From a virus, in the IMG/VR virus record IMGVR_UViG_3300032284_002538, positions 1 to 25,107 of that record: a stretch of 25,107 nt of DNA. One strand, given 5' to 3'. The notes beneath the pieces were generated by a model. That model was not told the DNA's origin. It saw only the letters and a list, made by a program, of their open reading frames with translations, and made no database searches. Below, piece after piece: positions 12,546-23,139 of the stretch (positions are counted from its first letter, which is position 1; each line of letters begins with the position of its first letter). The position numbers and the translations under genes were made by a program.

Positions 12546-12779
12546 ACTTTCAAAGTGTGAATATGTGGAAACGAGGTCCACGTCCTGCACTTAAAACATG
12601 GGACAAACGGGCGGCCTACGGGATGGAGTTCCTTTTGTGGAATGAAAAATCGTAGCGTATTAAAGCATTCTCAGGCCGTAAGGCAAGTGGGTTCATCCAT
12701 GAAGAGTGCTTTAATACACACATTCTCCACTCCTTTGACGAGTAAACAGCGTAGCTGGAGAGTGTGTTTACAAATTAAT
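12546..12779 (+). ncRNA. Structured non-coding stretch upstream of the Tyr-like tRNA
   Basis: No convincing gene. The main structure is two adjacent helices that abut without a gap: 12657-12667 with 12707-12717 (11 bp, perfect), enclosing a GCC-GTAA-GGC tetraloop hairpin and a TTCA/TGAA hairpin, and 12718-12729 with 12756-12767 (12 pairs, one G-U). Smaller hairpins (GTGGA/TCCAC near 12565; CTACG/CGTAG around 12617-12655) precede them. The three-way-junction shape suggests a folded RNA of unknown role. Confidence 0.5.
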
Positions 12780-12868
12780 GGAGTGTGTTCCCTGTTGCCG
12801 GCTGTAACCCGGTAGGCGTTGTTAAGCAGGGTGGCCGCCAAGTAGTTCGATTCTATCACACTCCACCA
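12780..12868 (+). tRNA. tRNA-Tyr(GUA)-like, D-arm missing
   Basis: Acceptor 12780-12786 pairs with 12858-12864 (7/7), A73 and CCA encoded. T-arm with TTCGATT loop (one A-C in the stem). Anticodon arm GCCGG/CCGGT with loop CTGTAAC, anticodon GTA. Only 10 nt separate acceptor and anticodon arm, so the D-arm is absent. A 27-nt variable region holds CAGGG, which can pair with CCCTG (12790-12794). Confidence 0.6.
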
Positions 12869-12873
12869 AGTTT

Positions 12874-12947
12874 GCCCTGTTAGTTTAATGGTAGAGCACC
12901 GGTTTTGTAATCCGGGAATGGCAGTTCGATTCTGTCACGGGGCACCA
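12874..12947 (+). tRNA. tRNA-Thr(UGU)
   Basis: Complete cloverleaf with acceptor GCCCTGT/ACGGGGC, anticodon loop TTTGTAA, T-loop with TTCGATT context and encoded CCA. Confidence 0.93.
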
Positions 12948-12952
12948 TTTTT

Positions 12953-13008
12953 AGGATGCTTCCAGCAAATAAAAAACTTTTATGGAAAAAAAGCAAAAAC
13001 AGCATCCT
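12953..13008 (+). repeat. Inter-tRNA hairpin element, copy 1
   Basis: AGGATGCT (12953-12960) pairs perfectly with AGCATCCT (13001-13008) and encloses a TTCCA/TGGAA hairpin and A-rich segments. It shares its flanks (TTTTAGGATGC, CAGCAAA, AAAAAAAGC, ATCCTG) with the element at 13175-13236. No CCA. Confidence 0.7.
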
Positions 13009-13013
13009 GCTTT

Positions 13014-13087
13014 ACCCGGATAGTTAAATGGTATAACAATCGGCTGATAACCGGTCATCACAAGTTCGATTCTTGTTCTGGGTACCA
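13014..13087 (+). tRNA. tRNA-Ile(GAU)
   Basis: Acceptor ACCCGGA/TCTGGGT, anticodon loop CTGATAA, T-arm ACAAG-TTCGATT-CTTGT, A73 and CCA encoded. Confidence 0.93.
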
Positions 13088-13091
13088 AATT

Positions 13092-13168
13092 ATATGGCGT
13101 TGGACTTCTGGGTAGGTCCTCGGCCCTTCAAGCCGAAGAGACGGGTTCGATTCCCGTACGCCATACCA
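13092..13168 (+). tRNA. tRNA-Glu(UUC), first copy, with C33
   Basis: Acceptor ATGGCGT/ACGCCAT, D-stem GACT/GGTC, anticodon arm TCGGC/GCCGA, T-arm ACGGG/CCCGT, CCA encoded. The anticodon loop is CCTTCAA: C instead of the near-universal U at position 33, which may weaken decoding. The second Glu gene at 17136 has U33. Confidence 0.88.
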
Positions 13169-13174
13169 AGTTTT

Positions 13175-13236
13175 AGGATGCGTTCAGCAAACTTTATACA
13201 TTTGACTTTTAATCAAAACCGTAAAAAAAGCATCCT
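13175..13236 (+). repeat. Inter-tRNA element, copy 2: T-arm-less Lys(UUU)-like hairpin
   Basis: AGGATGC (13175-13181) pairs 7/7 with GCATCCT (13230-13236), like an acceptor. Inside is a perfect anticodon-like arm, TTTGA-CTTTTAA-TCAAA (13201-13217), reading Lys UUU. Where a T-arm belongs there are only 12 A-rich bases, and no CCA follows. Homologous at both ends to copy 1. Confidence 0.65.
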
Positions 13237-13248
13237 GTTTTATTCTGT

Positions 13249-13322
13249 TCCCTGATGGTGTAGTGGTAACACAACTGACTTTGACTCAGTCGTCCTAGGT
13301 TCGAATCCTGGTCGGGGTGCCA
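13249..13322 (+). tRNA. tRNA-Gln(UUG)
   Basis: Anticodon arm ACTGA-CTTTGAC-TCAGT, T-arm CTAGG-TTCGAAT-CCTGG, G73 and CCA encoded. The first acceptor pair is an unpaired U1-U72, in line with the weak 1-72 pair of bacterial Gln tRNA. Confidence 0.92.
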
Positions 13323-13329
13323 ACAATTT

Positions 13330-13405
13330 GCCGCTTTAGCTGATGTGGTCATAGCACCGGTTTGAAGCACCGAGGAACTAGGTTCGATCCCTAGGGGCGG
13401 CACCA
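13330..13405 (+). tRNA. tRNA-Phe(GAA)
   Basis: Acceptor GCCGCTT/GGGCGGC, D-stem GCTG/TAGC, anticodon loop TTGAAGC, T-arm CTAGG-TTCGATC-CCTAG, A73 and CCA encoded. Pair 27-43 is a C-A mismatch. Confidence 0.9.
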
Positions 13406-13413
13406 ATTTTTAT

Positions 13414-13421
13414 TTTAAATA
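13414..13421 (+). promoter_or_regulatory. Late-type box TTTAAATA, 5 nt before ATG
   Basis: TTTAAATA, then 5 nt, then the ATG at 13427. No Shine-Dalgarno sequence. T4 geometry puts the transcript start on the A of the ATG. Confidence 0.55.
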
Positions 13422-13426
13422 GTTAC

Positions 13427-13969
13427 ATGATAAACTTCAGGACTATTGAACTAGAAAATTTAGATGTAATAGTTGCCAAGTGTTTGGCAATTATACAACC
13501 GCATATAGTTAACTTTACAAATTTGTATTATCTAGATTCGTTTAACCAAAGTAATGGTAGAACAGATAGATTTAGACAAGTGCCAGAGTTAATGGATGCA
13601 ATGACAAAATTAGGATGGGACCAATGTTGGTGGACATCTGCGTTAGTTGTTAGTTATGATGATTTGCCAATACATTACGATCATGGTGATTTTAAGTATT
13701 CGCTTAACATTCCTATACTAAACACCAAGGGCACCAGCACAGTATTTTACAAAGCCAATGCCCCTGCAACATTAAAGAATCCATTCGAAGGACAATACTA
13801 TTACGAGTATGATCCAAAAGATGTAGAAGAAATTGAGCGGGTTGAAATAATTCAGCCAACTCTAATCAAAGTCCATACACCGCATACAGTATTGTTAGGT
13901 GCTGGACTTAAACCGAGAGTAGTATTAGCACTACGTCTACATGACGATGTGCCTAATACATTAATTTAA
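13427..13969 (+). CDS. 2-oxoglutarate/Fe(II)-type oxygenase (double-stranded beta-helix)
   Basis: 180 aa. PIHYDHGDF provides H83-x-D85, the metal-binding pair. After a strand-rich core (YSLNIPIL, STVFYK) the distal His (HTPHTVLLG, H153) and Arg (R164 in PRVVLALRL) for 2-oxoglutarate follow at family spacing, so all four key residues are there. Such enzymes hydroxylate a protein, nucleic acid or small molecule; the substrate cannot be read. Length suits a minimal core without extra domains. It lies between tRNA-Phe and a short leader-like frame; the spacing to the late-type box suggests leaderless late expression. Confidence 0.8.
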   Translation: MINFRTIELENLDVIVAKCLAIIQPHIVNFTNLYYLDSFNQSNGRTDRFRQVPELMDAMTKLGWDQCWWTSALVVSYDDLPIHYDHGDFKYSLNIPILNTKGTSTVFYKANAPATLKNPFEGQYYYEYDPKDVEEIERVEIIQPTLIKVHTPHTVLLGAGLKPRVVLALRLHDDVPNTLI

Positions 13970-13983
13970 AAAGAGGTAACGAC

Positions 13984-14007
13984 ATGAAACGTTTAGGTAA
14001 ACGATAG
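13984..14007 (+). CDS. Possible 7-aa leader peptide MKRLGKR
   Basis: An AGAGG Shine-Dalgarno sequence 7 nt before ATG is followed by seven codons rich in Lys and Arg and a TAG stop. The stop opens a long hairpin (14007-14043), and the next two genes are Lys tRNAs. The layout resembles an attenuation leader. Nothing but position, ribosome site and codon content supports it; it could be a chance frame. Confidence 0.35.
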   Translation: MKRLGKR

Positions 14008-14043
14008 TGTCGACTCGGATCCCGTATTGGTCCCAGTCGGCAC
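14007..14043 (+). promoter_or_regulatory. Long hairpin between leader peptide and Lys tRNAs
   Basis: 9 bp (14007-14015 with 14035-14043, one G-U), a C-C mismatch, then 5 bp (14017-14021 with 14029-14033) and a 7-nt loop. No T-run follows, so it is not a standard terminator. Confidence 0.6.
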
Positions 14044-14068
14044 ATTAAATCAATTTAATTACGACTAA

Positions 14069-14144
14069 CCCTTCGTAGCGCAATTGGTAGCGCAACGGAC
14101 TCTTAATCCGCTGGTTGGCAGTTCGAGTCTGCCCGGAGGGACCA
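14069..14144 (+). tRNA. tRNA-Lys(CUU)
   Basis: Acceptor CCCTTCG/CGGAGGG, D-arm with TTGGTAG, anticodon loop CTCTTAA, T-arm with TTCGAGT, A73 and CCA encoded. Pair 27-43 is A-C. Confidence 0.9.
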
Positions 14145-14148
14145 ATAT

Positions 14149-14223
14149 GGGATTGAAGCTTTAAGGTGAAGCAACGGACTTTTAATCCGTAGAACTGGGA
14201 TCGTCGGCCCAGCAGTCCTACCA
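14149..14223 (+). tRNA. tRNA-Lys(UUU)-like with abnormal 8-nt T-loop
   Basis: Acceptor GGGATTG/CAGTCCT (two G-U), D-stem GCTT/AAGC, anticodon arm ACGGA-CTTTTAA-TCCGT, T-stem CTGGG/CCCAG, A73 and CCA all fit. The T-loop, however, is ATCGTCGG (8 nt) and lacks TTCRA. Downstream sequence can pair with its T-stem and CCA end. Probably a decaying or specially regulated tRNA. Confidence 0.65.
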
Positions 14224-14293
14224 TATAAAAACACATTGTTCGGCATGCTGGGCCCTAGGTATAACCTCCAGTCAGTGTGTTTCTATATGGTAG
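14206..14293 (+). other. Competing helices masking the 3' end of the Lys(UUU)-like tRNA
   Basis: Helix A: 14206-14214 with 14246-14254 (9 bp). Helix B: 14218-14235 with 14276-14293 (17 of 18 paired). The order A-B-A'-B' is that of a pseudoknot or of alternative folds. Both use the 3' half of the tRNA, including CCA. A further hairpin with a 5-nt bulge lies at 14248-14271. Confidence 0.6.
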
Positions 14294-14310
14294 CAGTTCA
14301 AGTTCAATGG

Positions 14311-15033
14311 TCACACGCCCTTGCTTGAATTAACAGTTGCCATATTATTTTTAATTTGATTAGCATGATATACCTTTGGAAAATGTCCTCTAAAAAACGG
14401 AGGCCAATGTTTTGCTCTATGTGCAGAATCAAAATATTCTGCAGGAGGCAATCTAAGATATTCTCTACTAATATCGATTAGTAATACTAGTCGACGTTTA
14501 TCTGTATAGTTGTGTGCGCTGTGTGTATATCGATTATCAAATCCGTATATATCACTCCAGTCAATTTCATAACCTTCTACTTCGAGAAATATATCTCCTT
14601 CGGGAACAATTAAAGGAACATGAATACGAACAATATCACCGGCTTCGTTTTCTCCCCCAATGTGTCGTTTAATGACAAGACCTGGCTCAATTGAGCTATA
14701 GGTACATATTGGACAATGTTCTTTATATTTTTCAAGTAACTTTGTTGCTGTTGGATAACGATCTCTTATTGTTTGGTCAGCTAATGGATCAATAGATACA
14801 TTATGTTTTTTCCAATTATATTTGAGAGGATCAACACGCCATGCATCTTTTTTTGTTTGTAATCCGGATATATCTTCAACAGGATTATTATAAGGTATTG
14901 ATTTAGAAAAATCACCATCTATATAATCAGTGTGGTATGCTAAAAATTCTTCTCTTAACATAGGAGCGGCTTCCATGAGTTCATCGGCTACATGTAGCTC
15001 TTCTCTGAGCCAAAATAGTTTTTTAGTATTCAT
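14311..15033 (-). CDS. Aspartyl/asparaginyl beta-hydroxylase-like protein
   Basis: 240 aa, the only minus-strand gene within the array. PGLVIKRHIGGENE supplies H124 followed by I-G; the usual Asp of the H-x-D motif is replaced by Gly, exactly as in AspH-type hydroxylases that bind iron with two His only. The strand pair DIVRIHVPLIVPEGD, the distal His in YTHSAHN and the DKRRLVLLIDI Arg region complete the fold. Predicted to hydroxylate Asp/Asn side chains of a peptide or protein; substrate unknown. ATTAAATA lies 5 nt before the ATG and there is no Shine-Dalgarno sequence. Confidence 0.82.
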   Translation of the reverse strand: MNTKKLFWLREELHVADELMEAAPMLREEFLAYHTDYIDGDFSKSIPYNNPVEDISGLQTKKDAWRVDPLKYNWKKHNVSIDPLADQTIRDRYPTATKLLEKYKEHCPICTYSSIEPGLVIKRHIGGENEAGDIVRIHVPLIVPEGDIFLEVEGYEIDWSDIYGFDNRYTHSAHNYTDKRRLVLLIDISREYLRLPPAEYFDSAHRAKHWPPFFRGHFPKVYHANQIKNNMATVNSSKGV

Positions 15034-15038
15034 ACAAA

Positions 15039-15046
15039 TATTTAAT
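15039..15046 (-). promoter_or_regulatory. Late-type box ATTAAATA, 5 nt before ATG
   Basis: Minus-strand ATTAAATA, five bases, then ATG at 15033. Same geometry as at 13414, 17624, 20052 and 23127. Confidence 0.55.
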
Positions 15047-15058
15047 TTTTAAAATTAT

Positions 15059-15134
15059 AGAAGCGTAGCATAGTGGCTAATGCACCACCTTCATACGGTG
15101 ATTATCGTCGGTTCGAGTCCGACCGCTTCTACCA
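15059..15134 (+). tRNA. tRNA with CAU anticodon (elongator Met or Ile2)
   Basis: Acceptor AGAAGCG/CGCTTCT fully paired (so not an initiator), D-stem GCAT/ATGC, anticodon loop TTCATAC, T-arm GTCGG-TTCGAGT-CCGAC, CCA encoded. Sequence alone does not tell Met from lysidine-type Ile. Confidence 0.92.
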
Positions 15135-15141
15135 AAATATA

Positions 15142-15169
15142 TTGACATTAGATAAAAATAGTGTATGAT
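15142..15169 (+). promoter_or_regulatory. Sigma70 promoter inside the tRNA array
   Basis: TTGACA (15142-15147), 16-bp spacer, TATGAT (15164-15169). The start near 15176 is only about 4 nt before tRNA-Leu(UAA). Confidence 0.75.
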
Positions 15170-15179
15170 ATAAATCAAT

Positions 15180-15266
15180 GCGAGTGTGGTGAAATAGGTA
15201 GACACAACAGACTTAAAATCTGTCGGGCGCAAGCCCATGCCGGTTCGATTCCGGCCATTCGCACCA
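15180..15266 (+). tRNA. tRNA-Leu(UAA)
   Basis: Class II tRNA with acceptor GCGAGTG/CATTCGC, anticodon arm ACAGA-CTTAAAA-TCTGT, long variable arm, T-loop TTCGATT, A73 and CCA encoded. Confidence 0.94.
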
Positions 15267-15272
15267 ATCTAT

Positions 15273-15348
15273 GGTGTTAGTAGTGTAGTGGTCTGCACCC
15301 CGTTCTGTGAAATCGGTAGTATGGGCTCGATCCCCATCTAGCACCCCA
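15273..15348 (+). tRNA. tRNA-His(GUG)
   Basis: The extra G-1 pairs with C73, the His identity hallmark. Acceptor GTGTTAG/CTAGCAC, anticodon loop CTGTGAA, CCA encoded. Unusual: T-loop begins with C (CTCGATC) and pair 30-40 is U-U. Confidence 0.85.
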
Positions 15349-15355
15349 AAGTAAT

Positions 15356-15450
15356 GCCCTTGTAGTTTAGCGGTAAAACACCCGGCTTATACCCGGCACA
15401 TGTCCCCAGATTAGGGAGCGTCGGTGGTTCGAATCCACCCGAGGGTACCA
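15356..15450 (+). tRNA. tRNA-Ile(UAU) with an extra-long variable arm
   Basis: Acceptor GCCCTTG/CGAGGGT, anticodon loop CTTATAC, T-arm GGTGG-TTCGAAT-CCACC, A73 and CCA encoded. About 25 nt lie between anticodon stem and T-stem, including a TCCC/GGGA hairpin with 7-nt loop. Isoleucine tRNAs normally have a 5-nt variable loop. Confidence 0.8.
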
Positions 15451-15458
15451 AATAATAT

Positions 15459-15495
15459 ACTAGCGAACAGGGTTCGATCCCTTCCGCTGGTACCA
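15459..15495 (+). ncRNA. tRNA minihelix (acceptor plus T-arm only, CCA encoded)
   Basis: 15459-15465 pairs 7/7 with 15485-15491, then A73-like A and CCA (15493-15495). Between them, after two bases, lies a T-arm with an intact TTCGATC loop (stem 15468-15472 with 15480-15484; outer pair C-C). D-arm and anticodon arm are absent. It sits cleanly between two normal tRNAs. Confidence 0.65.
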
Positions 15496-15497
15496 AT

Positions 15498-15585
15498 GCC
15501 CCGGTGGCGAAATCGGTAGACGCACTTCTCTCAAAAGGAAGAAGGAAAAACCTAGTTGTGAGTTCGAATCTCATCCGGGGTACCA
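15498..15585 (+). tRNA. tRNA-Leu(CAA)
   Basis: Class II tRNA: acceptor GCCCCGG/CCGGGGT, anticodon arm CTTCT-CTCAAAA-GGAAG, long variable arm, T-loop TTCGAAT, CCA encoded. Confidence 0.93.
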
Positions 15586-15593
15586 AAATGTTC

Positions 15594-15601
15594 AGTAAAT
15601 A
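15594..15601 (+). promoter_or_regulatory. Late-type box AGTAAATA, 4 nt before ATG
   Basis: AGTAAATA then 4 nt then ATG at 15606, one base closer than at the other oxygenase genes. No Shine-Dalgarno sequence. Confidence 0.5.
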
Positions 15602-15605
15602 ATGG

Positions 15606-16175
15606 ATGTACAATAATTATTGTTATCGTTTAAATTTTAATTTTGATCTGTCGTTAGATAATTTAACAGCAGTACAACAATCATATAAAAATTTAGACCA
15701 AGTAATGATTTTTAATTTTCCATTAAAAACTGTTGATGTTAACCTGTTAAAGTTTTTAGAACCGTTAGGACTTATTGTAAGCCACTGTGAGGCATTTTAT
15801 ACTCCGCCAAACGATAATTTATTATTGCACGTTGATCGAGATCAACCAAATAATGATTGTAAATTAAATTGGGTTTACGGTGCAACTGGTAGTGTTATGG
15901 AGTGGTGGATACCAAAAGATCCTGATCAACCATTAAATGTAAAAACAAATCCAACAGGTTACCATTATATTGAGTATTCTAAAAAAGATTGTTCTAAGGT
16001 GTGGAGTGCCGAAATAGGTAAACCTAGTATGATTAATTCGGGTGTACCTCATTCGGTTAGTAATACCACAAGCGAACAACGATGGTGTTATAGTCACGTT
16101 ATATTTGACAAAAAGAGTAATAATATTTTACAATGGAAAGATGCCGTTGGCATATTCGAACCATGGATAATATAA
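15606..16175 (+). CDS. 2-oxoglutarate/Fe(II)-type oxygenase
   Basis: 189 aa. LLLHVDRDQ gives H75-x-D77, the distal His is in GVPHSVSN (H149), and R159 (EQRWCYSHVI) is placed to hold 2-oxoglutarate. Strand-forming stretches around them suit the double-stranded beta-helix. It differs clearly from the neighbouring oxygenases, so this is not a recent duplicate. Its stop overlaps the next oxygenase start by one base (TAATG), so the two are made together. Substrate unknown. Confidence 0.78.
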   Translation: MYNNYCYRLNFNFDLSLDNLTAVQQSYKNLDQVMIFNFPLKTVDVNLLKFLEPLGLIVSHCEAFYTPPNDNLLLHVDRDQPNNDCKLNWVYGATGSVMEWWIPKDPDQPLNVKTNPTGYHYIEYSKKDCSKVWSAEIGKPSMINSGVPHSVSNTTSEQRWCYSHVIFDKKSNNILQWKDAVGIFEPWII

Positions 16176-16723
16176 TGTTCGCTAAATTAAAAAATAATTT
16201 TAATATTGATCATTTTGTTGAAAGAGATAAAATCATATCATTTGGATTAATAGTCGATGAAGAATTCCAAGGAATAGAATATAAAAAAGTTGTTAGTAAA
16301 CATGCTTTTGAAATTTTTAATACAATCCCTGCAGAATACAGAAGACTATTCGATATTCAATTAATGAAAATTAATAGAGAAATTCCACCACACACTGATA
16401 GTAAAATTTCATGCGCTATTAATTTTTTCATAAAAACTAAAGATTGTGTAACAAAATTTTATAATTTTGGAAATAGCAATCCAGATCAAATACAGATCGA
16501 AAATCAAACCAATGGTTTTATTTTTAACGAAAAAGATTTGATATGGGAAGGCGATTCTTTTACTGCAAAATCGGGTGAAGCATGGGTACTTGATGTTACC
16601 AAACCTCATTCAGTTCATCCGGTAGATTCCGGCAATCCAGAAAGAATTGCAATTACCTTGGCTACTAAATCATTTACATTTGATCAAGTATGCATGATGT
16701 TACGTGCAACTAATAATCTATAA
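16175..16723 (+). CDS. 2-oxoglutarate/Fe(II)-type oxygenase, coupled to the preceding one
   Basis: 182 aa from the ATG at 16175, which shares an A with the upstream TAA; in-frame ATGs further upstream lie inside the neighbour and are unlikely. IPPHTDSKI gives H73-x-D75, VTKPHSVHPV the distal His (H145), and ERIAITLA the Arg (R157). The P-H-S-V sequence at the distal His is shared with the upstream gene, which suggests an old paralogous pair that may act together. No Shine-Dalgarno sequence; translation is probably by re-initiation. Confidence 0.78.
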   Translation: MFAKLKNNFNIDHFVERDKIISFGLIVDEEFQGIEYKKVVSKHAFEIFNTIPAEYRRLFDIQLMKINREIPPHTDSKISCAINFFIKTKDCVTKFYNFGNSNPDQIQIENQTNGFIFNEKDLIWEGDSFTAKSGEAWVLDVTKPHSVHPVDSGNPERIAITLATKSFTFDQVCMMLRATNNL

Positions 16724-16732
16724 ATTTATTAC

Positions 16733-16821
16733 GGAGGGTTAACTGGACTGGGTCCAGCTCTGTCTTGAAAACAGAAGGTGTGCGAAAGCGCATAGAGTTC
16801 GATTCTACTAGCCCTCCTCCA
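16733..16821 (+). tRNA. tRNA-Ser(UGA)
   Basis: Class II tRNA with acceptor GGAGGGT/GCCCTCC, anticodon arm TCTGT-CTTGAAA-ACAGA, long variable arm (GTGTGCGAAAGCGCAT) and CCA. Position 73 is U rather than the usual G of bacterial Ser tRNA. Confidence 0.9.
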
Positions 16822-16843
16822 AATATGCCACTAAGGGAACTAA

Positions 16844-16918
16844 CTCGTTATAGTTCAATGGATAGAACAAGACACTCCTAAGGTTTAGATGGAGGTTCGA
16901 TTCCTCCTAACGAGGCCA
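16844..16918 (+). tRNA. tRNA-Arg(CCU)
   Basis: Acceptor CTCGTTA/TAACGAG, D-stem GTTC/GAAC, anticodon loop CTCCTAA, T-arm GGAGG-TTCGATT-CCTCC, G73, CCA encoded. Anticodon stem is weak (A-G at 31-39). Confidence 0.88.
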
Positions 16919-16947
16919 TTGATATAGGGAGATAATTACTGTATAAT
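16919..16947 (+). promoter_or_regulatory. Sigma70 promoter abutting tRNA-Arg(UCU)
   Basis: TTGATA (16919-16924) begins right after the CCA of the previous tRNA; 17-bp spacer; TATAAT (16942-16947). The predicted start (about 16954) is one base from the tRNA 5' end. Confidence 0.72.
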
Positions 16948-16954
16948 ACTTTAT

Positions 16955-17031
16955 CTGCCCGTAGCTCAGTTGGATAGAGCAACAGCCTTCTAAGCTGTGG
17001 GTCGGGGGTTCGATTCCCTCCGGGCAGGCCA
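16955..17031 (+). tRNA. tRNA-Arg(UCU)
   Basis: Acceptor CTGCCCG/CGGGCAG, D-arm AGCTCAGTTGGATAGAGC, anticodon arm ACAGC-CTTCTAA-GCTGT, T-arm with TTCGATT, G73, CCA encoded. Confidence 0.95.
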
Positions 17032-17053
17032 GATTCTGTTGTAAAAATACAAC

Positions 17054-17082
17054 TTGACAAATTGTTAGAAGTCTAGTATAAT
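17054..17082 (+). promoter_or_regulatory. Perfect-consensus sigma70 promoter
   Basis: TTGACA (17054-17059), 17-bp spacer, TATAAT (17077-17082): a full consensus promoter. The start near 17089 is followed by a GTTAA-GAAA-TTAAC hairpin (17093-17106) and a boxA-like motif. Confidence 0.88.
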
Positions 17083-17108
17083 ACTAGCATACGTTAAGAA
17101 ATTAACTT

Positions 17109-17122
17109 GTTCTTTAAAAAAT
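17109..17122 (+). promoter_or_regulatory. boxA-like antitermination motif
   Basis: TGTTCTTTAAAAAAT resembles the rRNA-operon boxA core (YGCTCTTTAACA) bound by NusB/S10. It lies between a consensus promoter with a leader hairpin and tRNA-Glu, the same order as in bacterial rRNA leaders. Confidence 0.5.
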
Positions 17123-17135
17123 AGTTGTTATATTT

Positions 17136-17211
17136 GCTCGGTTCGTCTATCGGTCTAGGACACCGCCCTTTCACGGCGGGAAGAGGGGTTCGATTCCCCT
17201 ACCGAGTACCA
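17136..17211 (+). tRNA. tRNA-Glu(UUC), second copy
   Basis: Acceptor GCTCGGT/ACCGAGT, anticodon arm CCGCC-CTTTCAC-GGCGG with normal U33, T-arm with TTCGATT, A73, CCA encoded. Confidence 0.95.
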
Positions 17212-17452
17212 TTAAATGTATCGTTTTGGAAAAACTCGGTGTTCACCCGGGTAATGCACAGTCAATGGGTCCTCTGTCTAGCTAGCACGGCCAATACTGT
17301 TGATGTCAGAGTATATGGGTCATGCCTGTATATTCGTAACGAAAATAAGTAAACTTCGGCCGGAGTCCTTATATAAGTTGACACGTTAAAAGCAAACGAC
17401 AATAGGGTTATTGTTGTCCATAACGAAACGATACACTTAATGGTAAGATTAT
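17212..17452 (+). other. Non-coding stretch with hairpins and two very short frames
   Basis: ACTCGGT (17234-17240) can pair with the 3' acceptor strand of the preceding tRNA (17201-17207). A 9-bp hairpin with G-U pairs lies at 17311-17333, and a smaller one around 17400-17415. Two TAATG-linked frames of 12 and 32 codons (17216-17254, 17254-17352) lack ribosome sites. No firm gene seen. Confidence 0.4.
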
Positions 17453-17530
17453 GTAGGGGTACCAGAGAGGCTTAATGGCACTGATTGCAAACCAGTTGAT
17501 TCGTCGGTTCAAATCCGACTCCCTACTCCA
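17453..17530 (+). tRNA. tRNA-Cys(GCA)
   Basis: Acceptor GTAGGGG/TCCCTAC, anticodon loop TTGCAAA, T-arm GTCGG-TTCAAAT-CCGAC, U73 (Cys identity base), CCA encoded. Confidence 0.92.
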
Positions 17531-17539
17531 TACAATTTT

Positions 17540-17614
17540 GGTCTCATAGTATATCGGTTAGTATAATGGCCTGTCACGCCGTAGGGACGAGTTCGATTCT
17601 CGTTGAGACCGCCA
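17540..17614 (+). tRNA. tRNA-Asp(GUC)
   Basis: Acceptor GGTCTCA/TGAGACC, anticodon arm ATGGC-CTGTCAC-GCCGT, T-arm with TTCGATT, G73, CCA encoded. Confidence 0.94.
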
Positions 17615-17623
17615 AATTGTTTT

Positions 17624-17631
17624 ATTAAATA
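17624..17631 (+). promoter_or_regulatory. Late-type box ATTAAATA, 5 nt before ATG
   Basis: ATTAAATA, five bases, ATG at 17637, no Shine-Dalgarno sequence. Predicted transcript start on the ATG. Confidence 0.55.
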
Positions 17632-17636
17632 AGTTC

Positions 17637-18254
17637 ATGGATGAAGTTATAATTATTGATGATGTTGTATGGCCAGAAAAGCAAGATGAAATAGAAAATG
17701 TTTTTTTTACTAAAAATCTTGCCTGGAAATTCTTTACAGATGTTGCTATACCAGAAAATGAAATTAAAGCATTAGGTATAACAAAATTAACGCCGGGTAT
17801 CGGCGCTAGCATATTGCAAGATCAACCTCATTATATAAATCAACCATTATTAGATTTAACAGAAACCATAGTACATAATGCTTGCTCTAAACTAGGGTTA
17901 GTATGCGATAAGATTATACAAGGTAGAAGTTTTATAACTTTTCCATTACGTGAAGAATTAAGGAAAGAATACGACAACATACATATTGATTTAAATTATG
18001 ATCATATGGTATGTTTATATTATGTTAATGATGTAGATGGAGATACTGTTTTATTTGAAGAAACAGCAGGTAGTTTTAAAAATAAAACCGTGTTAAAAGA
18101 AAAACTTCAAAAAAATGAATTTAAAATTGCTTATAGAGTAACACCTAAAAAAGGCCGTTGTATAGTGTTTAATGGTAAAAGGTATCATTCAAGTAGTGGT
18201 CCCACTAAAGGAGTTCGCTGTATTATCAATTTTAATTTCAGTTTAATGCCCTGA
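17637..18254 (+). CDS. Prolyl-4-hydroxylase-like 2-oxoglutarate/Fe(II) oxygenase
   Basis: 205 aa. YDNIHIDLNYDHMVCLYYVND carries H116-x-D118. GDTVLFEE, RVTPKKGRCIVFNG and the distal H184 (YHSSSGP) with R194 match the P4Hc pattern common in marine phages. All metal and cosubstrate residues are present. Oddity: its TGA stop (18252-18254) and the last codons lie inside the acceptor stem of tRNA-Leu(UAG), so the mRNA and the tRNA share 7 bases; maturing the tRNA would remove the stop codon. Substrate unknown. Confidence 0.86.
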   Translation: MDEVIIIDDVVWPEKQDEIENVFFTKNLAWKFFTDVAIPENEIKALGITKLTPGIGASILQDQPHYINQPLLDLTETIVHNACSKLGLVCDKIIQGRSFITFPLREELRKEYDNIHIDLNYDHMVCLYYVNDVDGDTVLFEETAGSFKNKTVLKEKLQKNEFKIAYRVTPKKGRCIVFNGKRYHSSSGPTKGVRCIINFNFSLMP

Positions 18255-18330
18255 TGGTGGAATTGGTAGACACGCTGGTCTTAGAAGCCAGTGCTTAGGC
18301 GTGAGAGTTCGAGTCTCTCTTGGGGCACCA
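18248..18330 (+). tRNA. tRNA-Leu(UAG)
   Basis: Class II tRNA: acceptor GCCCTGA/TTGGGGC (two wobble pairs), anticodon arm CTGGT-CTTAGAA-GCCAG, T-arm GAGAG-TTCGAGT-CTCTC, CCA encoded. The first 7 bases overlap the end of the preceding coding region. Confidence 0.93.
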
Positions 18331-18331
18331 A

Positions 18332-18428
18332 TTTATTAAAATACATCTAACCTAGATATAATTTAGGTAGTAAGGACAGGGCACCAGGTTATAAAAGATT
18401 CCAAAAGCCATAGGTGTATTTTAATAAA
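18332..18428 (+). ncRNA. Inter-tRNA RNA element closed by a 14-bp perfect stem
   Basis: 18332-18345 pairs with 18415-18428 without mismatch, filling the space between tRNA-Leu and tRNA-Gly almost exactly (1 and 2 nt to spare). Inside is an ACCTA/TAGGT hairpin and further small stems. No reading frame of note. Confidence 0.55.
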
Positions 18429-18430
18429 AT

Positions 18431-18504
18431 GCAGGGTTAGTATAATGGTATTATGACAGCCTTCCAAGCTGATGACACGGGTTCGATTCCCGTACCCTGC
18501 TCCA
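18431..18504 (+). tRNA. tRNA-Gly(UCC)
   Basis: Acceptor GCAGGGT/ACCCTGC, anticodon loop CTTCCAA, T-arm with TTCGATT, U73 (Gly identity), CCA encoded. Confidence 0.94.
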
Positions 18505-18519
18505 TATTATAACTAATAT

Positions 18520-18593
18520 GTATCCCTAGTATAATGGCAGTACTGCGGTCTCCAAAACCGTTAGTCGGGGTTCGAGTCCCTGGGGGTACGCCA
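18520..18593 (+). tRNA. tRNA-Trp(CCA)
   Basis: Acceptor GTATCCC/GGGGTAC, anticodon arm GCGGT-CTCCAAA-ACCGT, T-arm with TTCGAGT, G73, CCA encoded. Confidence 0.94.
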
Positions 18594-18799
18594 AAAAACC
18601 CGGGATCCCTTACTCGTTAGTAAAAGGGGGTGTTGACGGTTACCATAATCCGTTGGGTACACTAGGACTCGACCTTCATTCCCGTTATATGGGAGAGTGA
18701 AAACTGCCTAGGGTGGACAACTACAGTCCTTCCATAAGACAAAAACGTGTGGACAGGGTAACAACTCAGTCTAGGGCTCTTGTGGTGAGAGTAGCTAGA
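18594..18799 (+). other. 206-nt gene-free stretch with serial hairpins
   Basis: No reading frame of note and no complete tRNA. Hairpins: 18607-18628 (CCCTTAC with GTAAAAGGG, AA bulge), 18680-18694 (TCCC/GGGA, 7-nt loop), 18715-18729 (GGAC/GTCC, 7-nt loop), and GTCTAG (18769-18774) with CTAGAC (18795-18800) enclosing CTCT/AGAG. It leads into the long stem at 18800. Confidence 0.5.
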
Positions 18800-18925
18800 C
18801 ACTTTAATAAAGTATACTAATTGAAAAGTGTCTTTGGACTAGAATGACTATCTAGTTAGATGCTTGGATAGGGATATAAAAAGACCCTGCTCGTCACAGT
18901 TGTCCTAGTATACTTTATTAAAGTG
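18797..18925 (+). ncRNA. Structured RNA with a 20-bp stem and a competing hairpin, before tRNA-Ala
   Basis: 18800-18819 pairs perfectly with 18906-18925 (20 bp), ending on the first base of tRNA-Ala. The same 5' strand can instead form a local 9-bp hairpin (18797-18805 with 18825-18833). GGAC/GTCC, ATCTA/TAGAT and GGG/CCC stems lie inside. The two folds exclude each other. Confidence 0.6.
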
Positions 18926-19000
18926 GGGGTGTAGCTCAGCTGGGAGAGCATCTGCTTTGCAAGCAGAGGGTAGCGGGTTCGAGTCCTGTCACCTCCACCA
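18925..19000 (+). tRNA. tRNA-Ala(UGC)
   Basis: Acceptor GGGGGTG/CACCTCC with the G3-U70 pair that marks alanine tRNA, anticodon loop TTTGCAA, T-arm with TTCGAGT, A73, CCA encoded. Confidence 0.96.
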
Positions 19001-19008
19001 ATGGTTAT

Positions 19009-19082
19009 AGCGGGATGGAGAAACGGTAACTCACGAGTCTCATAAGCTCGAGGTCCAGGTTCGATTCCTGGTCCCGCAACCA
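19009..19082 (+). tRNA. Initiator tRNA-fMet(CAU)
   Basis: Acceptor AGCGGGA/TCCCGCA has an A1-A72 mismatch, the bacterial initiator hallmark, and the end CCGCAACCA is like bacterial fMet tRNA. Anticodon loop CTCATAA, T-arm CCAGG-TTCGATT-CCTGG. The three G-C pairs usual in the initiator anticodon stem are only partly kept. Confidence 0.88.
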
Positions 19083-19087
19083 ATTAA

Positions 19088-19175
19088 GGAGAGTTGGCCG
19101 AGTGGTTAAGGCAACAGTTTGCTAAACTGTCGTCCAGAAATGGGCGCATAGGTTCGATTCCTATACTCTCCGCCA
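19088..19175 (+). tRNA. tRNA-Ser(GCU)
   Basis: Class II tRNA: acceptor GGAGAGT/ACTCTCC, anticodon arm ACAGT-TTGCTAA-ACTGT, long variable arm, T-loop TTCGATT, G73, CCA encoded. Confidence 0.94.
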
Positions 19176-19195
19176 AATTTTAAAAAGGAAAAGAA

Positions 19196-19393
19196 ATGTA
19201 CATTAAACCAGGTCCAAATTATAAGATGTCAAAACAGACTAAACGTAGTCTTGCTTTGATCGTTGATCCTCATGAACGAGGAATACAACGTCGACTCATG
19301 GTTCAGGCCGAACTAGCGGCACTTGTTTCACCAAAGCGCGAAAAGAAACAGAGCTACGGTAATCGTCCTATAGTTGAAACAACAGAAGAATAA
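19196..19393 (+). CDS. 65-aa basic hypothetical protein
   Basis: An AAGGAAAAG Shine-Dalgarno sequence precedes ATG 19196. The protein is rich in Lys/Arg (KMSKQTKRSLALI, DPHERGIQRRLM) with one amphipathic helix in the middle (VQAELAALV) and a polar tail; no membrane segment. It resembles small phage proteins of unknown role and could bind nucleic acid (inference from charge). Stop is 5 nt before tRNA-Asn, so mRNA and tRNA are probably cut from one transcript. Confidence 0.75.
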   Translation: MYIKPGPNYKMSKQTKRSLALIVDPHERGIQRRLMVQAELAALVSPKREKKQSYGNRPIVETTEE

Positions 19394-19398
19394 TTTAT

Positions 19399-19475
19399 TC
19401 CCTGATAGCTCAGTTGGTAGAAGCACTTGACTGTTAATCAAGGTGTCGCTGGTTCGAGCCCAGCTCGGGGAGCCA
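19399..19475 (+). tRNA. tRNA-Asn(GUU)
   Basis: Acceptor TCCCTGA/TCGGGGA, anticodon arm CTTGA-CTGTTAA-TCAAG, T-arm CTGG-TTCGAGC-CCAG, G73, CCA encoded. D-arm has one extra A (GTAGAAGC). Confidence 0.92.
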
Positions 19476-19495
19476 TTTTTAAAAAAGGAAATTGT

Positions 19496-19657
19496 ATGCA
19501 GGTAAGAGCAAACGCAAATGGTAAGATTGGAACGTGCGGATGTGGTCGTAGTCCTACAGGAGATTGCTGTGGATGGCACGGACTAAATGAAGATGCTTAT
19601 AAACAAGCATTGGAACAATATAACCAAAAATTAAATGAGAATAAGGATTCAAAATGA
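19496..19657 (+). CDS. CDGSH-like iron-sulfur protein (divergent)
   Basis: 53 aa from ATG 19496 with AAAAAAGGAA before it; a longer frame from 19427 runs through the tRNA and is rejected. CGCGRS (C14, C16) ... CCGWH (C24/C25, H28) follows the mitoNEET/CDGSH plan C-x-C-x2-S-x(n)-C-[D]-G-x-H, with the Asp replaced by Cys, Ser by Trp and the loop shorter by one residue. If it binds a 2Fe-2S cluster the ligands would be three Cys and one His, giving redox or electron-transfer function. A helical charged tail follows. It overlaps the next start by 4 nt (ATGA). Alternative: a small zinc-binding protein. Confidence 0.6.
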   Translation: MQVRANANGKIGTCGCGRSPTGDCCGWHGLNEDAYKQALEQYNQKLNENKDSK

Positions 19658-19878
19658 TTAAAGGTAGCAGATGTTCAGAGTTAGATAACGATCTGTGCGT
19701 AGAAAATGCAGGTGGTAATAGGTTTGATCTTATTATACTTGCTTCTGTGCGAGCTCGAGAAATCAGCGAACGTAATAAAAATAGCGAAAAATTTGAACAT
19801 CTGCACACTCCTGTTTCAGCCTTACTTGAAATACAAGAAGGAAAAATAGGAGCAGAGTACTTAAAAAAAGTACGTTAA
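19654..19878 (+). CDS. rpoZ: RNA polymerase omega subunit-like protein
   Basis: 74 aa. After a short N terminus, GGNRFDLIILASVRAREI (residues ~20-37) matches the omega core (NRF-[DE]-L-V-x2-A-x-R-A-R). HTPVSALLEIQEGKIGAEYL matches the downstream helix (V-x-A-L-x-E-I-x-x-G-K-I). Both conserved helices are present and the length fits the family. Bacterial omega wraps the beta-prime C terminus and stabilises core RNA polymerase, so this protein could replace or compete with the host subunit during infection (inference). It is coupled to the CDGSH-like gene by an ATGA overlap; AAGGATTCAAA is its ribosome site. Confidence 0.82.
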   Translation: MIKGSRCSELDNDLCVENAGGNRFDLIILASVRAREISERNKNSEKFEHLHTPVSALLEIQEGKIGAEYLKKVR

Positions 19879-19885
19879 GAATTTT

Positions 19886-19961
19886 GCCTGGGTGCGTAGA
19901 GAGGTGATACGTCTCCTTTACACGGAGAGCGATACTGGTTCGAGTCCAGTCCCAGGTACCA
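19886..19961 (+). tRNA. tRNA-Val(UAC)
   Basis: Acceptor GCCTGGG/CCCAGGT, anticodon loop TTTACAC closed by CTCC/GGAG, T-arm ACTGG-TTCGAGT-CCAGT, A73, CCA encoded. Confidence 0.94.
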
Positions 19962-19966
19962 ATCAT

Positions 19967-20043
19967 CGGAGTGTAGCGCAGTCTGGTAGCGCACCTGGTT
20001 TGGGACCAGGGGGTCCAAGGTTCGAATCCTTGTACTCCGACCA
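19967..20043 (+). tRNA. tRNA-Pro(UGG)
   Basis: Acceptor CGGAGTG/TACTCCG (C1-G72 as in bacterial Pro tRNA), anticodon arm CCTGG-TTTGGGA-CCAGG, T-arm with TTCGAAT, A73, CCA encoded. Confidence 0.95.
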
Positions 20044-20051
20044 TAATACTT

Positions 20052-20059
20052 TGTAAATA
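20052..20059 (+). promoter_or_regulatory. Late-type box TGTAAATA, 5 nt before ATG
   Basis: TGTAAATA, five bases, ATG at 20065, no Shine-Dalgarno sequence. Confidence 0.5.
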
Positions 20060-20064
20060 TATCT

Positions 20065-20838
20065 ATGTTTTACGAAAAACTTCCAATAAACATAGATATA
20101 GATAATCTTCAGCGAGACCTAGTGGAACATGTAATTTCACTAGGTCCTCCCGTTATACAAGGTGAAGAATTTATTACACCTGAATACTTTGGATTCGGAG
20201 GATGGAGCATCCTATCACGCACAGGCGATTGGCATGACGGTTGGGAAATGGGACATATAGCACAAAACGAAGCACGTGACTTAATATATCCAAATGGGAT
20301 TCCAAACTACCGAGCATTAAAATATTTGAATTTTTCTCATGGCGTAGAGCATAGGAACCCTACTCAGGCATGTAAGGGAGAATTTGTTAAAATAATATCC
20401 CAATTAGAAAAAATGGGTTTTTATCCTAGTCGTGCTAGGGTGAGTATTATGCAACCAGGAGCAAGTACAACTGTACATCAAGATGCACCCAGTAATGTTT
20501 ATATGGCTAGAATTCATATTCCTATTATAACAAACGAACAATGTATACACTCTTGCGAAGGGATAGATTTGCACATGCCTGCAGACGGTAGCGCCTATAT
20601 CATGTGGGTTAATTTACCTCATCAGGCTCGAAATACTTCAAATGAAAATAGGTATCATATGTTGATAGATGTGTACGACACTCAACATATAACCGATAAC
20701 TTTCATTATAAAGATAATTACAGTATATTAGAAACAGAAGCCAATCGTTACAGAGCAATATTAAATAACATTAATCTAACAGCACAAGAAATTAAAATAT
20801 TTGATGAATTTAAGCAAAAGTTTGTAACCAAAGATTAA
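20065..20838 (+). CDS. Aspartyl/asparaginyl hydroxylase-like 2-oxoglutarate oxygenase
   Basis: 257 aa. TVHQDAP gives H138-x-D140, NLPHQARN the distal His (H186) and R196 (ENRYHMLIDVYD) the cosubstrate Arg. ARIHIPIITNEQC between them is the strand pair typical of the aspartyl/asparaginyl beta-hydroxylase family. Unlike the related product of 14311-15033 it keeps the metal-binding Asp. A helical tail of about 50 residues follows the core. It stands alone between tRNA-Pro and tRNA-Gly and stops 1 nt before the latter. Substrate unknown. Confidence 0.82.
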   Translation: MFYEKLPINIDIDNLQRDLVEHVISLGPPVIQGEEFITPEYFGFGGWSILSRTGDWHDGWEMGHIAQNEARDLIYPNGIPNYRALKYLNFSHGVEHRNPTQACKGEFVKIISQLEKMGFYPSRARVSIMQPGASTTVHQDAPSNVYMARIHIPIITNEQCIHSCEGIDLHMPADGSAYIMWVNLPHQARNTSNENRYHMLIDVYDTQHITDNFHYKDNYSILETEANRYRAILNNINLTAQEIKIFDEFKQKFVTKD

Positions 20839-20839
20839 T

Positions 20840-20915
<76 letters not shown>

Positions 20916-20923
20916 AAGGATAT

Positions 20924-22102
20924 ATGAAAAAAAGAATAGCAGTGTTAGGAACAGGTACAGCAGGAATAATATCACTTTCAATTTTATTATCTTATGTAAC
21001 CAACAACTGGGATGTTGTTAGTGTCTATGATCCTACCAAACCTATCCTAGGAATTGGGGAAAGTACCAATCCTAACTTTATAGGTACCCTTCAAGAAGGT
21101 ACACAATTTAATATCGATGATTTAGGAGAACTTCACGGAACATTAAAGTTTGGAACAAAATATCGTCGATGGAGAGAAAACGATTTTGTTAACCCGTTGT
21201 TTGGTGCAGGTTATGCTATACACTTTGACAATTTTACCTTAAAAGATTATTGTTTCAAAAAGTTTTATAAATTGTGGCCTGAGAAATTCAAAGAGATAAC
21301 AGGTTCTGTTACAGAAGTTGTTCCGGGAAATAAATCTGCAAAAATTTTAATAGATAACCGTGTAGAAGAATTTGATTACATTGTAGATTGTAGAGGGTTT
21401 CCTCCCGACCTTAGTTTAGATTATGTCAAGTCTTCATGCAGTCCTGTTAATCATTGTGTTGTTTATTCTGTTCCTCCCGAAAATCAAGAAATGTACACAG
21501 ATCATATTGCTATGAATCACGGCTGGATGTTTGGTATTCCGTTAACAACTAGAACGACTTATGGATATCTGTTCAACGATACTATGTCTAACAAAGCTGA
21601 TGTTATCAAAGAGATGAGCGAATACTTAAAGATTGATATAAATGAAGACAAGATTATTGAATATAACTTCACACCATTTTATACTAAGAAAATTTTTGAG
21701 GGACGAGTATTAAAAAACGGCAATCGGGCTTTGTTTTTTGAACCATTATCTGCTAGTTCAATTTATATGTATATTCAAATTATGCAGAGTTTTATTGATT
21801 ATCTAGTAGATCCAGAGCGTGTATTACTTAACGAATCATTTCAAATGAACGCAGAGGGATTAGAAGATATGATCAGCTATCTATATCACGGCGGATCTAC
21901 CCTTGATACAGAATTTTGGCAACATGCTAAAACCCTAGGACAAAAAAAGTTGGCCAATAGTATTAAATTAAAGGCCGTGATCAAAGATTATAATGCACTT
22001 TTTGATCAAGGTCTCCTTATACAAGGCAAGGGTTGGTTGTTTGCTCCTATGACTATGCGCCTAGTAGATGAAAAATTTGGTTATAATTATTTCAAACGTT
22101 AA
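20924..22102 (+). CDS. Flavin-dependent tryptophan-halogenase-family protein (short form)
   Basis: 392 aa from ATG 20924, chosen for AAAGGA just before it; an in-frame ATG at 20855 lies in the tRNA. GTGTAG (residues 9-14) is the FAD site and GIGESTNPNF the second flavin motif of PF04820. GTLKFGTKYRRW holds the Lys corresponding to the catalytic Lys of PrnA/RebH, and NHGWMFGIPLTTRTTYGYLF retains G-W-x-F-x-I-P, close to the W-x-W-x-I-P motif. FFEPLSASS is the C-terminal flavin contact. Shorter than classical halogenases (about 500-550 aa), so substrate and even halogenation are uncertain. The stop directly abuts tRNA-Arg(UCG). Confidence 0.82.
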   Translation: MKKRIAVLGTGTAGIISLSILLSYVTNNWDVVSVYDPTKPILGIGESTNPNFIGTLQEGTQFNIDDLGELHGTLKFGTKYRRWRENDFVNPLFGAGYAIHFDNFTLKDYCFKKFYKLWPEKFKEITGSVTEVVPGNKSAKILIDNRVEEFDYIVDCRGFPPDLSLDYVKSSCSPVNHCVVYSVPPENQEMYTDHIAMNHGWMFGIPLTTRTTYGYLFNDTMSNKADVIKEMSEYLKIDINEDKIIEYNFTPFYTKKIFEGRVLKNGNRALFFEPLSASSIYMYIQIMQSFIDYLVDPERVLLNESFQMNAEGLEDMISYLYHGGSTLDTEFWQHAKTLGQKKLANSIKLKAVIKDYNALFDQGLLIQGKGWLFAPMTMRLVDEKFGYNYFKR

Positions 22103-22177
22103 CGGCCTTTGGTGAAATGGATATCATTTCGGTCTTCGAAACCGACGGTGGGAGTTCGATCCTCTCAAGGCCGGCCA
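22103..22177 (+). tRNA. tRNA-Arg(UCG)
   Basis: Acceptor CGGCCTT/AAGGCCG, anticodon arm TCGGT-CTTCGAA-ACCGA, T-arm GGGAG-TTCGATC-CTCTC, G73, CCA encoded. It begins on the base after the stop codon of the halogenase-like gene. Confidence 0.94.
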
Positions 22178-22178
22178 T

Positions 22179-22252
22179 GCTCTTGTAGTATAATGGTAGT
22201 ACACTGACTTGGTACGTCAGTAATCCAAGTTCGATTCTTGGCTTGAGCACCA
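22179..22252 (+). tRNA. tRNA-Thr(GGU)
   Basis: D-stem GTAT/GTAC, anticodon arm CTGAC-TTGGTAC-GTCAG, T-arm CCAAG-TTCGATT-CTTGG, A73, CCA encoded. The acceptor has two adjacent U-U mismatches (5-68 and 6-67). One nucleotide separates it from tRNA-Arg. Confidence 0.9.
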
Positions 22253-22255
22253 CGG

Positions 22256-22284
22256 TTGACTAAATGGTAAATTGAATGTATAAT
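22256..22284 (+). promoter_or_regulatory. Near-consensus sigma70 promoter giving a leaderless start
   Basis: TTGACT (22256-22261), 17-bp spacer, TATAAT (22279-22284), then 6 nt and ATG at 22291. The predicted +1 is the A of that ATG. Confidence 0.75.
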
Positions 22285-22290
22285 CAAGTC

Positions 22291-22518
22291 ATGTATAAAA
22301 TAATAGGTAAAGAAGAAACATTTAAGGTGTTAACACTAGATGAGGCAATGAATCTTGCCAAGCATATGAACGAATTCGTAACTATCAAAGGTGACGATTT
22401 TGAAGTATGCGGTATATTTGGTGTTGACAGCATTAAGGAAGGTAAGTGCCCAGACGGTGTTGCTTACGATTGGAACAAAGCAAGCCGAATAGGCCGTGTT
22501 AAAAAGGAGAGAGTCTAA
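22291..22518 (+). CDS. 75-aa hypothetical protein
   Basis: I take the ATG at 22291, not the in-frame ATG at 22276 that overlaps the -10 box and would not be transcribed. The protein reads as a small alpha/beta domain (KVLTLDEAMNLAKHMNEFVTIKGDDFEVCGIFGVDSI) with a basic end (GRVKKERV); no membrane segment. No family recognised. It appears to be translated from a leaderless mRNA and its stop overlaps the phosphatase start (TAATG), so the two are co-expressed. Confidence 0.72.
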   Translation: MYKIIGKEETFKVLTLDEAMNLAKHMNEFVTIKGDDFEVCGIFGVDSIKEGKCPDGVAYDWNKASRIGRVKKERV

Positions 22519-22961: not shown

Positions 22962-22975
22962 AGAGTTTTTAATCC

Positions 22976-23113: not shown

Positions 23114-23126
23114 AGCTTTTGTACTC

Positions 23127-23134
23127 TATAAATA
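23127..23134 (+). promoter_or_regulatory. Perfect T4-type late box TATAAATA, 5 nt before ATG
   Basis: Exact TATAAATA, TTTTT, then ATG at 23140. No Shine-Dalgarno sequence. The best single example of the box-N5-ATG arrangement. Confidence 0.65.
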
Positions 23135-23139
23135 TTTTT

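Follow-up and report, generated by a model that had tools for sequence, protein, structure and literature searches.

The question raised by this locus is whether a 37-nt unit with the acceptor end of a tRNA, from which the D-arm and the anticodon arm are absent, is a gene in its own right or the remnant of one. The unit lies at 15459-15495 (+) of the window, that is, of the whole stretch of DNA analysed here, the complete 25.1-kb IMG/VR record of a tailed phage. Its cyclase gene most resembles the cyclase genes of Melnitz-type Methylophilales phages and of Pelagibacter phage HTVC008M. The unit reads ACTAGCG AA CAGGG TTCGATC CCTTC CGCTGGT A CCA and forms an acceptor helix and a T-arm followed by an encoded ACCA (Table 1); we call it the minihelix. 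It starts 8 nt past tRNA-Ile(TAT) and ends 2 nt before tRNA-Leu(CAA). The first-pass annotation had described a 37-nt acceptor/T-arm/CCA unit between two tRNA genes, and both its coordinates and its features prove correct, with one of the seven acceptor pairs being a U.G (U3.G70). The T-stem, on whose pairing the first-pass annotation is silent, includes a G51.U63 wobble and leaves C49.C65 unpaired, so that the acceptor and T helices would lack continuous stacking. RNAfold gives -15.0 kcal/mol (z -3.4).

Table 1. Features of the minihelix and its surroundings in the window, and nested tRNA-like units on other viral contigs
Feature	Position in the window, or contigs	Strand	Remark
Sigma-70-like promoter TTGACA-16-TATGAT	15142..15169	+	11/12 consensus bases, by consensus match alone; 5' of tRNA-Leu(TAA)
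tRNA(UAU), called tRNA-Ile(TAT), long variable arm; presumed replacement tRNA	15356..15450	+	ARAGORN, Rfam
Variable arm TCCC-CAGATTA-GGGA of this tRNA(UAU)	15403..15417	+	loop CAGATTA common to parent tRNA(UAU)
Minihelix 5' acceptor strand ACTAGCG	15459-15465	+	pairs 7/7 with 15485-15491
Minihelix linker AA	15466-15467	+	single A in L058 and L287
Minihelix T-arm CAGGG-TTCGATC-CCTTC	15468-15484	+	4/5 pairs, C49.C65 open
Minihelix T-stem 5' strand CAGGG	15468-15472		
Minihelix T-stem 3' strand CCTTC	15480-15484		
Minihelix 3' acceptor strand CGCTGGT	15485-15491		
Minihelix A73 and CCA	15492-15495		
3' acceptor strand, A73 and CCA (CGCTGGTACCA)	15485-15495	+	invariant in all alleles and parent
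tRNA-Leu(CAA)	15498..15585	+	gene after the minihelix in the window and L147
Nested 44-50-nt minihelices (six)	L012, L025, L031, L053, L062, L094		
Nested 59-68-nt units, anticodon-armless	L070 (two), L071, L088		
Nested 75-86-nt units	L013, L032, L049, L067, L075, L091, L104		

The window holds 29 tRNAs found by ARAGORN and two more from Rfam, scanned permissively with E values as high as 10, and neither search gave a match at the minihelix, though its neighbours were found; at 37 nt, with no D-arm, no anticodon arm and no tRNA-model match, it fails as a tRNA gene. ARAGORN missed a tRNA-Tyr(GTA) and a tRNA-Ser(TGA) (12779-12868 and 16733-16820), whose long variable arms lead Rfam to score them as tRNA-Sec-like. 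The candidate promoter at 15142-15169 could drive the run Leu-His-Ile-minihelix-Leu, and no terminator-like site was found up to 15640, so the minihelix is probably co-transcribed with the four tRNAs. Among the array tRNAs (13427-24738) lie Asp/Arg-hydroxylase and 2OG-oxygenase-like genes (14314-15033, 17637-18251 and 20065-20835), and two genes within the array (20927-22099 and 23143-24738) are related to phage tryptophan halogenases. Four intergenic stretches (14224-14300, 17215-17450, 18331-18430 and 18594-18924) carry long inverted repeats with no ORF or Rfam match, and are possible further small structured RNAs.

The minihelix derives from a tRNA. In block-shuffled arrays, units that combined CCA with six or more of the seven acceptor pairs and four or more of the five T-stem pairs occurred at 0.005 per array, and units with 7/7 acceptor pairs, CCA or not, at 0.035 per array; this rarity excludes chance. 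The source can be named as a 92-nt tRNA(UAU) that is highly conserved on at least ~100 viral contigs and has a type-II long variable arm (loop CAGATTA), the acceptor strands GCCAGCG/CGCTGGT, A73 and an end of the form T-arm-CGCTGGT-ACCA. The 3' acceptor strand, A73 and CCA of the window minihelix are identical to those of this parent, and 31 nt (TGAGAGGGTTCGATCCCCTCCGCTGGTACCA) are identical between the 3' end of the tRNA on contig L100 and the minihelix on contig L058. A tRNA-Met at 15059, with a look-alike acceptor (AGAAGCG/CGCTTCT), was dropped as a source since the tRNA(UAU) parent has the same 3' end. The long variable arm, its loop and A73 mark a phage tRNA(UAU) class to which both the complete tRNA at 15356-15450 and the parents (e.g., L100:8248-8339 (-)) belong; the widespread form has an acceptor stem in common with some phage tRNA-Leu genes.

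To find relatives, we scanned all viral contigs for two T-arm/CCA motifs spaced too tightly for a whole tRNA between them. Contig L058, two of whose proteins share 82% (22276-22518) and 88% (22518-22961) amino-acid identity with the window, bears ATCAGTG A GAGGG TTCGATC CCCTC CGCTGGT ACCA directly after tRNA(UAU), as in the window. A narrower scan gave ACTGGCG AA TAGGG TTCGATC CCCTC CGCTGGT ACCA in L147, between a tRNA ending in GGTACCA and tRNA-Leu(CAA), in the same order as in the window, and a scan for the same acceptor with a short linker gave ATCAGTG A GAGGG TTCGATA CCCTC CGCTGGT ACCA in L287 and L288 (one allele on two contigs), with tRNA-Leu(TAG) on one side and tRNA-Phe on the other. 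There are thus four alleles, that of the window and three on four contigs, and in all of them a helix of seven acceptor pairs is followed by an RCCA end, the 5' strands ACTGGCG and ATCAGTG pairing 7/7 as well; pairs were counted by script because MAFFT placed a one-base gap wrongly. A 12-bp coaxial stack of acceptor and T-stem is found in L058 and L287 but for the 1-nt linker, and is interrupted in the window (C49.C65) and L147 (T49.C65), where the pair is open. Most tRNA-like leftovers from the spacing scan have no 7-bp acceptor, and other free-standing units with 7/7 acceptor pairs are rare (L016, L019 and L036, plus L212 with three G.U pairs, among 289 loci and 3,400 ARAGORN tRNAs). No near copies were found in an exact search with the 3' half of the minihelix, the neighbouring protein (15606-16175) returned no relatives as a query, and BLAST of the minihelix against 50,697 phage records gave weak matches to ordinary tRNAs and nothing else. 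Bacterial and archaeal genomes yielded one match, L289, which was rejected as protein-coding DNA.

How the 3' end of a tRNA came to stand behind a complete tRNA of the same anticodon is best seen in L058, where the order is a 5' piece of the parent, a homing-endonuclease-like gene, a tRNA(UAU) at 2144-2234 and the minihelix. A BLAST search with the parent hits L058 in two pieces 0.7 kb apart, one being the minihelix and the other a 5' end (acceptor strand and D-arm, 1494-1516) that is 100% identical. Between them, on the other strand, a 201-aa ORF (1512-2117) matches PHROG 314 homing endonuclease (E 1e-13) and SegE_GIY-YIG PF19835 (E 3.6e-5, 24.4 bits against a cut-off of 25). An independent case of the same layout with other sequences is found in L108: a 5' stump ACTCCTT-TAGTTTAGCGGTAAAACACCTGGCTT at 12740, an endonuclease-like ORF at 12788-13348 (PHROGs 'Holliday junction resolvase' 1.7e-9, 'endonuclease' 1.3e-8 and 'homing endonuclease' 1e-4), a complete tRNA(UAU) at 13339-13429 and a 3' stump of variable arm, T-arm, AGGGAGT and ACCA, the acceptor strands of the two stumps pairing 7/7. 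A 3' tRNA piece also lies directly behind tRNA(UAU) in L046/L086 and in L029. The same-anticodon tRNA(UAU) stands 8-9 nt upstream of the unit in the window and in L058, its relative position in L147 being judged from its 3' end; in L288 a tRNA-Leu(TAG) stands there instead. Since neither an endonuclease gene nor a 5' stump was found near the minihelix in the window, we infer its history there from the relatives.

The tRNAs upstream of the unit in L058 (2144-2234, UAU) and L288 (1054-1130 (-), UAG) have the 3' half, spacer and minihelix in common under different tRNA bodies, which indicates that the arrays recombine and suggests that tRNA bodies have been exchanged by recombination at the T-arm; a Leu-TAG gene with an L058-type 3' half upstream of the unit in L287/L288 is as expected in such arrays.

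At the level of sequence, we could demonstrate the descent of the unit from the 3' end of tRNA(UAU), the split layout in two relatives and seven acceptor pairs in every allele. The minihelix is probably a 3' stump, left behind when a homing cassette split an old tRNA(UAU) gene and took its place. Such a cassette, made up of an endonuclease gene plus a substitute tRNA that likewise has the UAU anticodon, would insert into the tRNA(UAU) gene and split it; the replacement tRNA would take over decoding, and the T-arm, 3' acceptor strand and CCA of the old gene would remain just downstream of it. A short stretch before the stump would then pair as the 5' acceptor strand to give the minihelix, and both endonuclease gene and 5' stump would since have been lost from the window. 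Beyond the layout itself, we infer that an endonuclease drove the homing, that the unit is transcribed along with the array, and that RNase P and 3' enzymes trim it to a ~37-nt by-product unable to decode. The minihelix would be a transcribed scar of tRNA replacement that is probably trimmed, since the contacts of RNase P are confined to the acceptor and T-stems, along with pairing to the RCC (PMC11221534). Impaired stacking reportedly slows this cleavage, which fits the window allele poorly. Against this reading, the window has neither an endonuclease gene nor a 5' stump near the unit, and an identical unit could come from a deletion in place between GAGA repeats of the parent. A bare stump also leaves the pairing 5' strand unexplained, as five bases of the cassette would pair by chance with the 3' strand of the old gene about 1 in 64 times (hand estimate), and neutral decay is not seen.

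A rival possibility is that the minihelix is maintained as a functional RNA. It might act on proteins that bind acceptor ends, for example by baiting host enzymes or toxins directed against CCA ends, or it might be a clean processing unit through which the stump does no harm to adjacent genes. Its excision from the tRNA transcript would fall to RNase P and 3' enzymes, and a stump origin is compatible with all this. The alleles are 0.92 (L147), 0.84 (L058) and 0.81 (L287) identical to the window unit, and for most tRNAs of shared anticodon the matching 35 nt are no more alike between the same two phages. All alleles keep seven acceptor pairs despite flanking genes near silent-site saturation (dS 1.1-2.1 to L058 and 0.8-3.2 to L287; 49-74% differing). 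None of the four changes to the 5' acceptor strand breaks pairing, and CCA, A73 and the T-loop are kept; in simulations with the same number of changes, all acceptor pairs were kept with p 0.01-0.11, varying with transition bias and ancestor. The alleles have three different downstream neighbour settings, so that the minihelix behaves as a module. Moreover, phage defences that target acceptor ends act on minihelix-like or truncated substrates: FaRel2 modifies minihelices (PMC11559606), and Cas12a3 cuts the CCA tails of truncated tRNAs (PMC12851939). Of the FaRel2 determinants (G1-C72, C2-G71, G4-C69 and G5-C68; PMC11559606), however, the window unit has only C2-G71 and G5-C68, with A1-U72 and A4-U69 in place of the other two. 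It also weighs against a function that only four alleles are known as against at least ~100 contigs with the parent, that re-homing into parent genes may keep the 3' half identical without selection, and that the 49-65 pair is lost in the window and L147. The paired stem and CCA kept in four related phages suggest that the minihelix may still be excised as a tiny RNA; we regard a present RNA function as conceivable, though on balance rather unlikely. The first-pass annotation took the unit for a minihelix gene that could serve as a decoy, a primer-like RNA or a processing signal, and argued that random deletion in a dead tRNA need not have spared all seven pairs and CCA. The related phages did not bear out the decay of the stem that would have told against this proposal, all seven pairs being present in four alleles from diverged phages. 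But the argument itself is not supported, as the unit is the 3' end of tRNA(UAU) and L058 and L108 show how a homing cassette would leave a 3' stump. A gene made for one of these roles finds no direct support, and the open 49-65 pair in the window and L147 speaks against a strict tRNA-like geometry.

A second rival, in which the parent tRNA(UAU) simply lost its interior by deletion between two direct GAGA repeats and no homing took place, we consider unlikely. Joining the parent at these repeats, of which one follows acceptor base 6 and the other precedes the T-stem, gives ACCAGCGAGAGGGTTCGATCCCCTCCGCTGGTACCA, two bases off the L058 unit, and some parents begin with A1 (L180, L219 and L260). 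In L058, however, the parent 5' end is a separate piece beyond the endonuclease gene and the new tRNA, and a deletion would therefore need two parent copies. The 5' strand could be the cassette end joined to the stump, a strand of the parent variable arm, or the parent acceptor through the GAGA deletion, and parsimony counts tie at 7 substitutions each way (hand count). The parent variable-arm strand ATTAGCG pairs 7/7 with CGCTGGT in most parents and is a possible source, but the variable arm itself covaries (L171 and L285), so the match is incidental. Finally, a chance hairpin or a decaying, unconstrained tRNA pseudogene is very improbable: tRNA fragments are frequent in these arrays and most leftovers lack a 7-bp acceptor, which speaks for it, but only 0.005 such units are expected per shuffled array, and the alleles keep their pairing and 81-92% identity to the window unit against silent-site differences of 49-74%.

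The split-and-replace origin can be compared with known systems. tRNA fragments left by insertions are common (PMC9897764), and in the partial tRNA genes of Thermococcaceae islands, likewise, one tRNA end is kept and adjoins a complete same-anticodon tRNA, with or without an element between. Those copies come from integrases and duplicate or restore the same tRNA (PMC9897764), whereas the present case involves a different tRNA(UAU) as replacement, a phage gene of homing-endonuclease type, and a 3' fragment whose acceptor stem is paired once more. SegB of T-even phages, a GIY-YIG homing endonuclease, cuts in phage tRNA regions and drives recombination and tRNA gene exchange there, and is the known precedent for the proposed homing (PMC13096335). 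In L058, too, a gene in a phage tRNA array resembles the GIY-YIG type, but there, though not in the window, the putative endonuclease gene lies inside a split tRNA, adjoins a same-codon substitute tRNA and leaves two stumps. Laboratory minihelices, which are substrates of RNase P, alanyl-tRNA synthetase and EF-Tu (PMC11221534), also have seven acceptor pairs, a T-loop and RCCA. In contrast to them, the window unit is natural and genome-encoded, and its T-stem of 4/5 pairs and 2-nt linker interrupt the stacking. Armless mitochondrial tRNAs (PMC12221289, PMC4033280) are reduced tRNA structures too, but they keep the anticodon arm and decode, whereas the minihelix is without anticodon.

Other tRNA-like units occur in viral tRNA genes. 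In 17 of them, a tRNA-like insert with 7/7 acceptor pairs, a T-arm and an encoded NCCA lies within or just after the anticodon (Table 1), and ARAGORN accepts the host tRNA once the insert is removed. These look like nested tRNA genes or tRNA-like introns, which would need cutting and RNA ligation. No clear association with the nested units was found for T4-type RNA ligase (PF09511) or RtcB. A link with Rnl2-type ligase (PF09414) is only suggestive: it is present in 6/9 nested contigs of at least 50 kb against 6/17 others (P = 0.13), or in 7/9 when one weak match is counted (P = 0.05). A literature search, mostly outside subscription journals, found no report of nested tRNA genes. A second group consists of permuted elements (L058:2281-2405, L058:2538-2660, L023:3752-3860 and L059:5616-5712; also L027, L039, L045, L055, L065, L093, L106, L114 and L117), in which an outer stem of AGGNTAC/GTANCCT type and a CAGCAA motif surround a circularly permuted tRNA-like unit, the T-arm and 3' acceptor strand (some with ACCA) preceding the 5' acceptor strand. 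One of these elements, L058:2281-2405, seems to hold an entire tRNA-Val(TAC) in permuted form. Two paralogous non-tRNA hairpins in the window (12954-13009 and 13176-13237; AGGATGC...CAGCAAA...GCATCCT) belong to this family minus its tRNA part, and have a weak likeness, below the Rfam cut-off, to Dictyostelium class I RNA. It is a speculative and improbable proposal that phage arrays hold a class of encoded minihelix RNAs, excised by tRNA processing and serving the phage, e.g., as bait for acceptor-end defences; its members would be free-standing (the window family, L036, L019 and L016) and nested (the six 44-50-nt minihelices).

For the turnover of phage tRNA sets, the split-and-replace origin would provide a concrete route, in which an endonuclease-linked cassette splits a tRNA gene, supplies a same-codon substitute and leaves readable stumps. 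Should the stump still be excised as a minihelix ending in CCA, it would give a natural and genome-encoded counterpart to a structure that has until now served chiefly as a tool in the laboratory and as a model for early tRNA.
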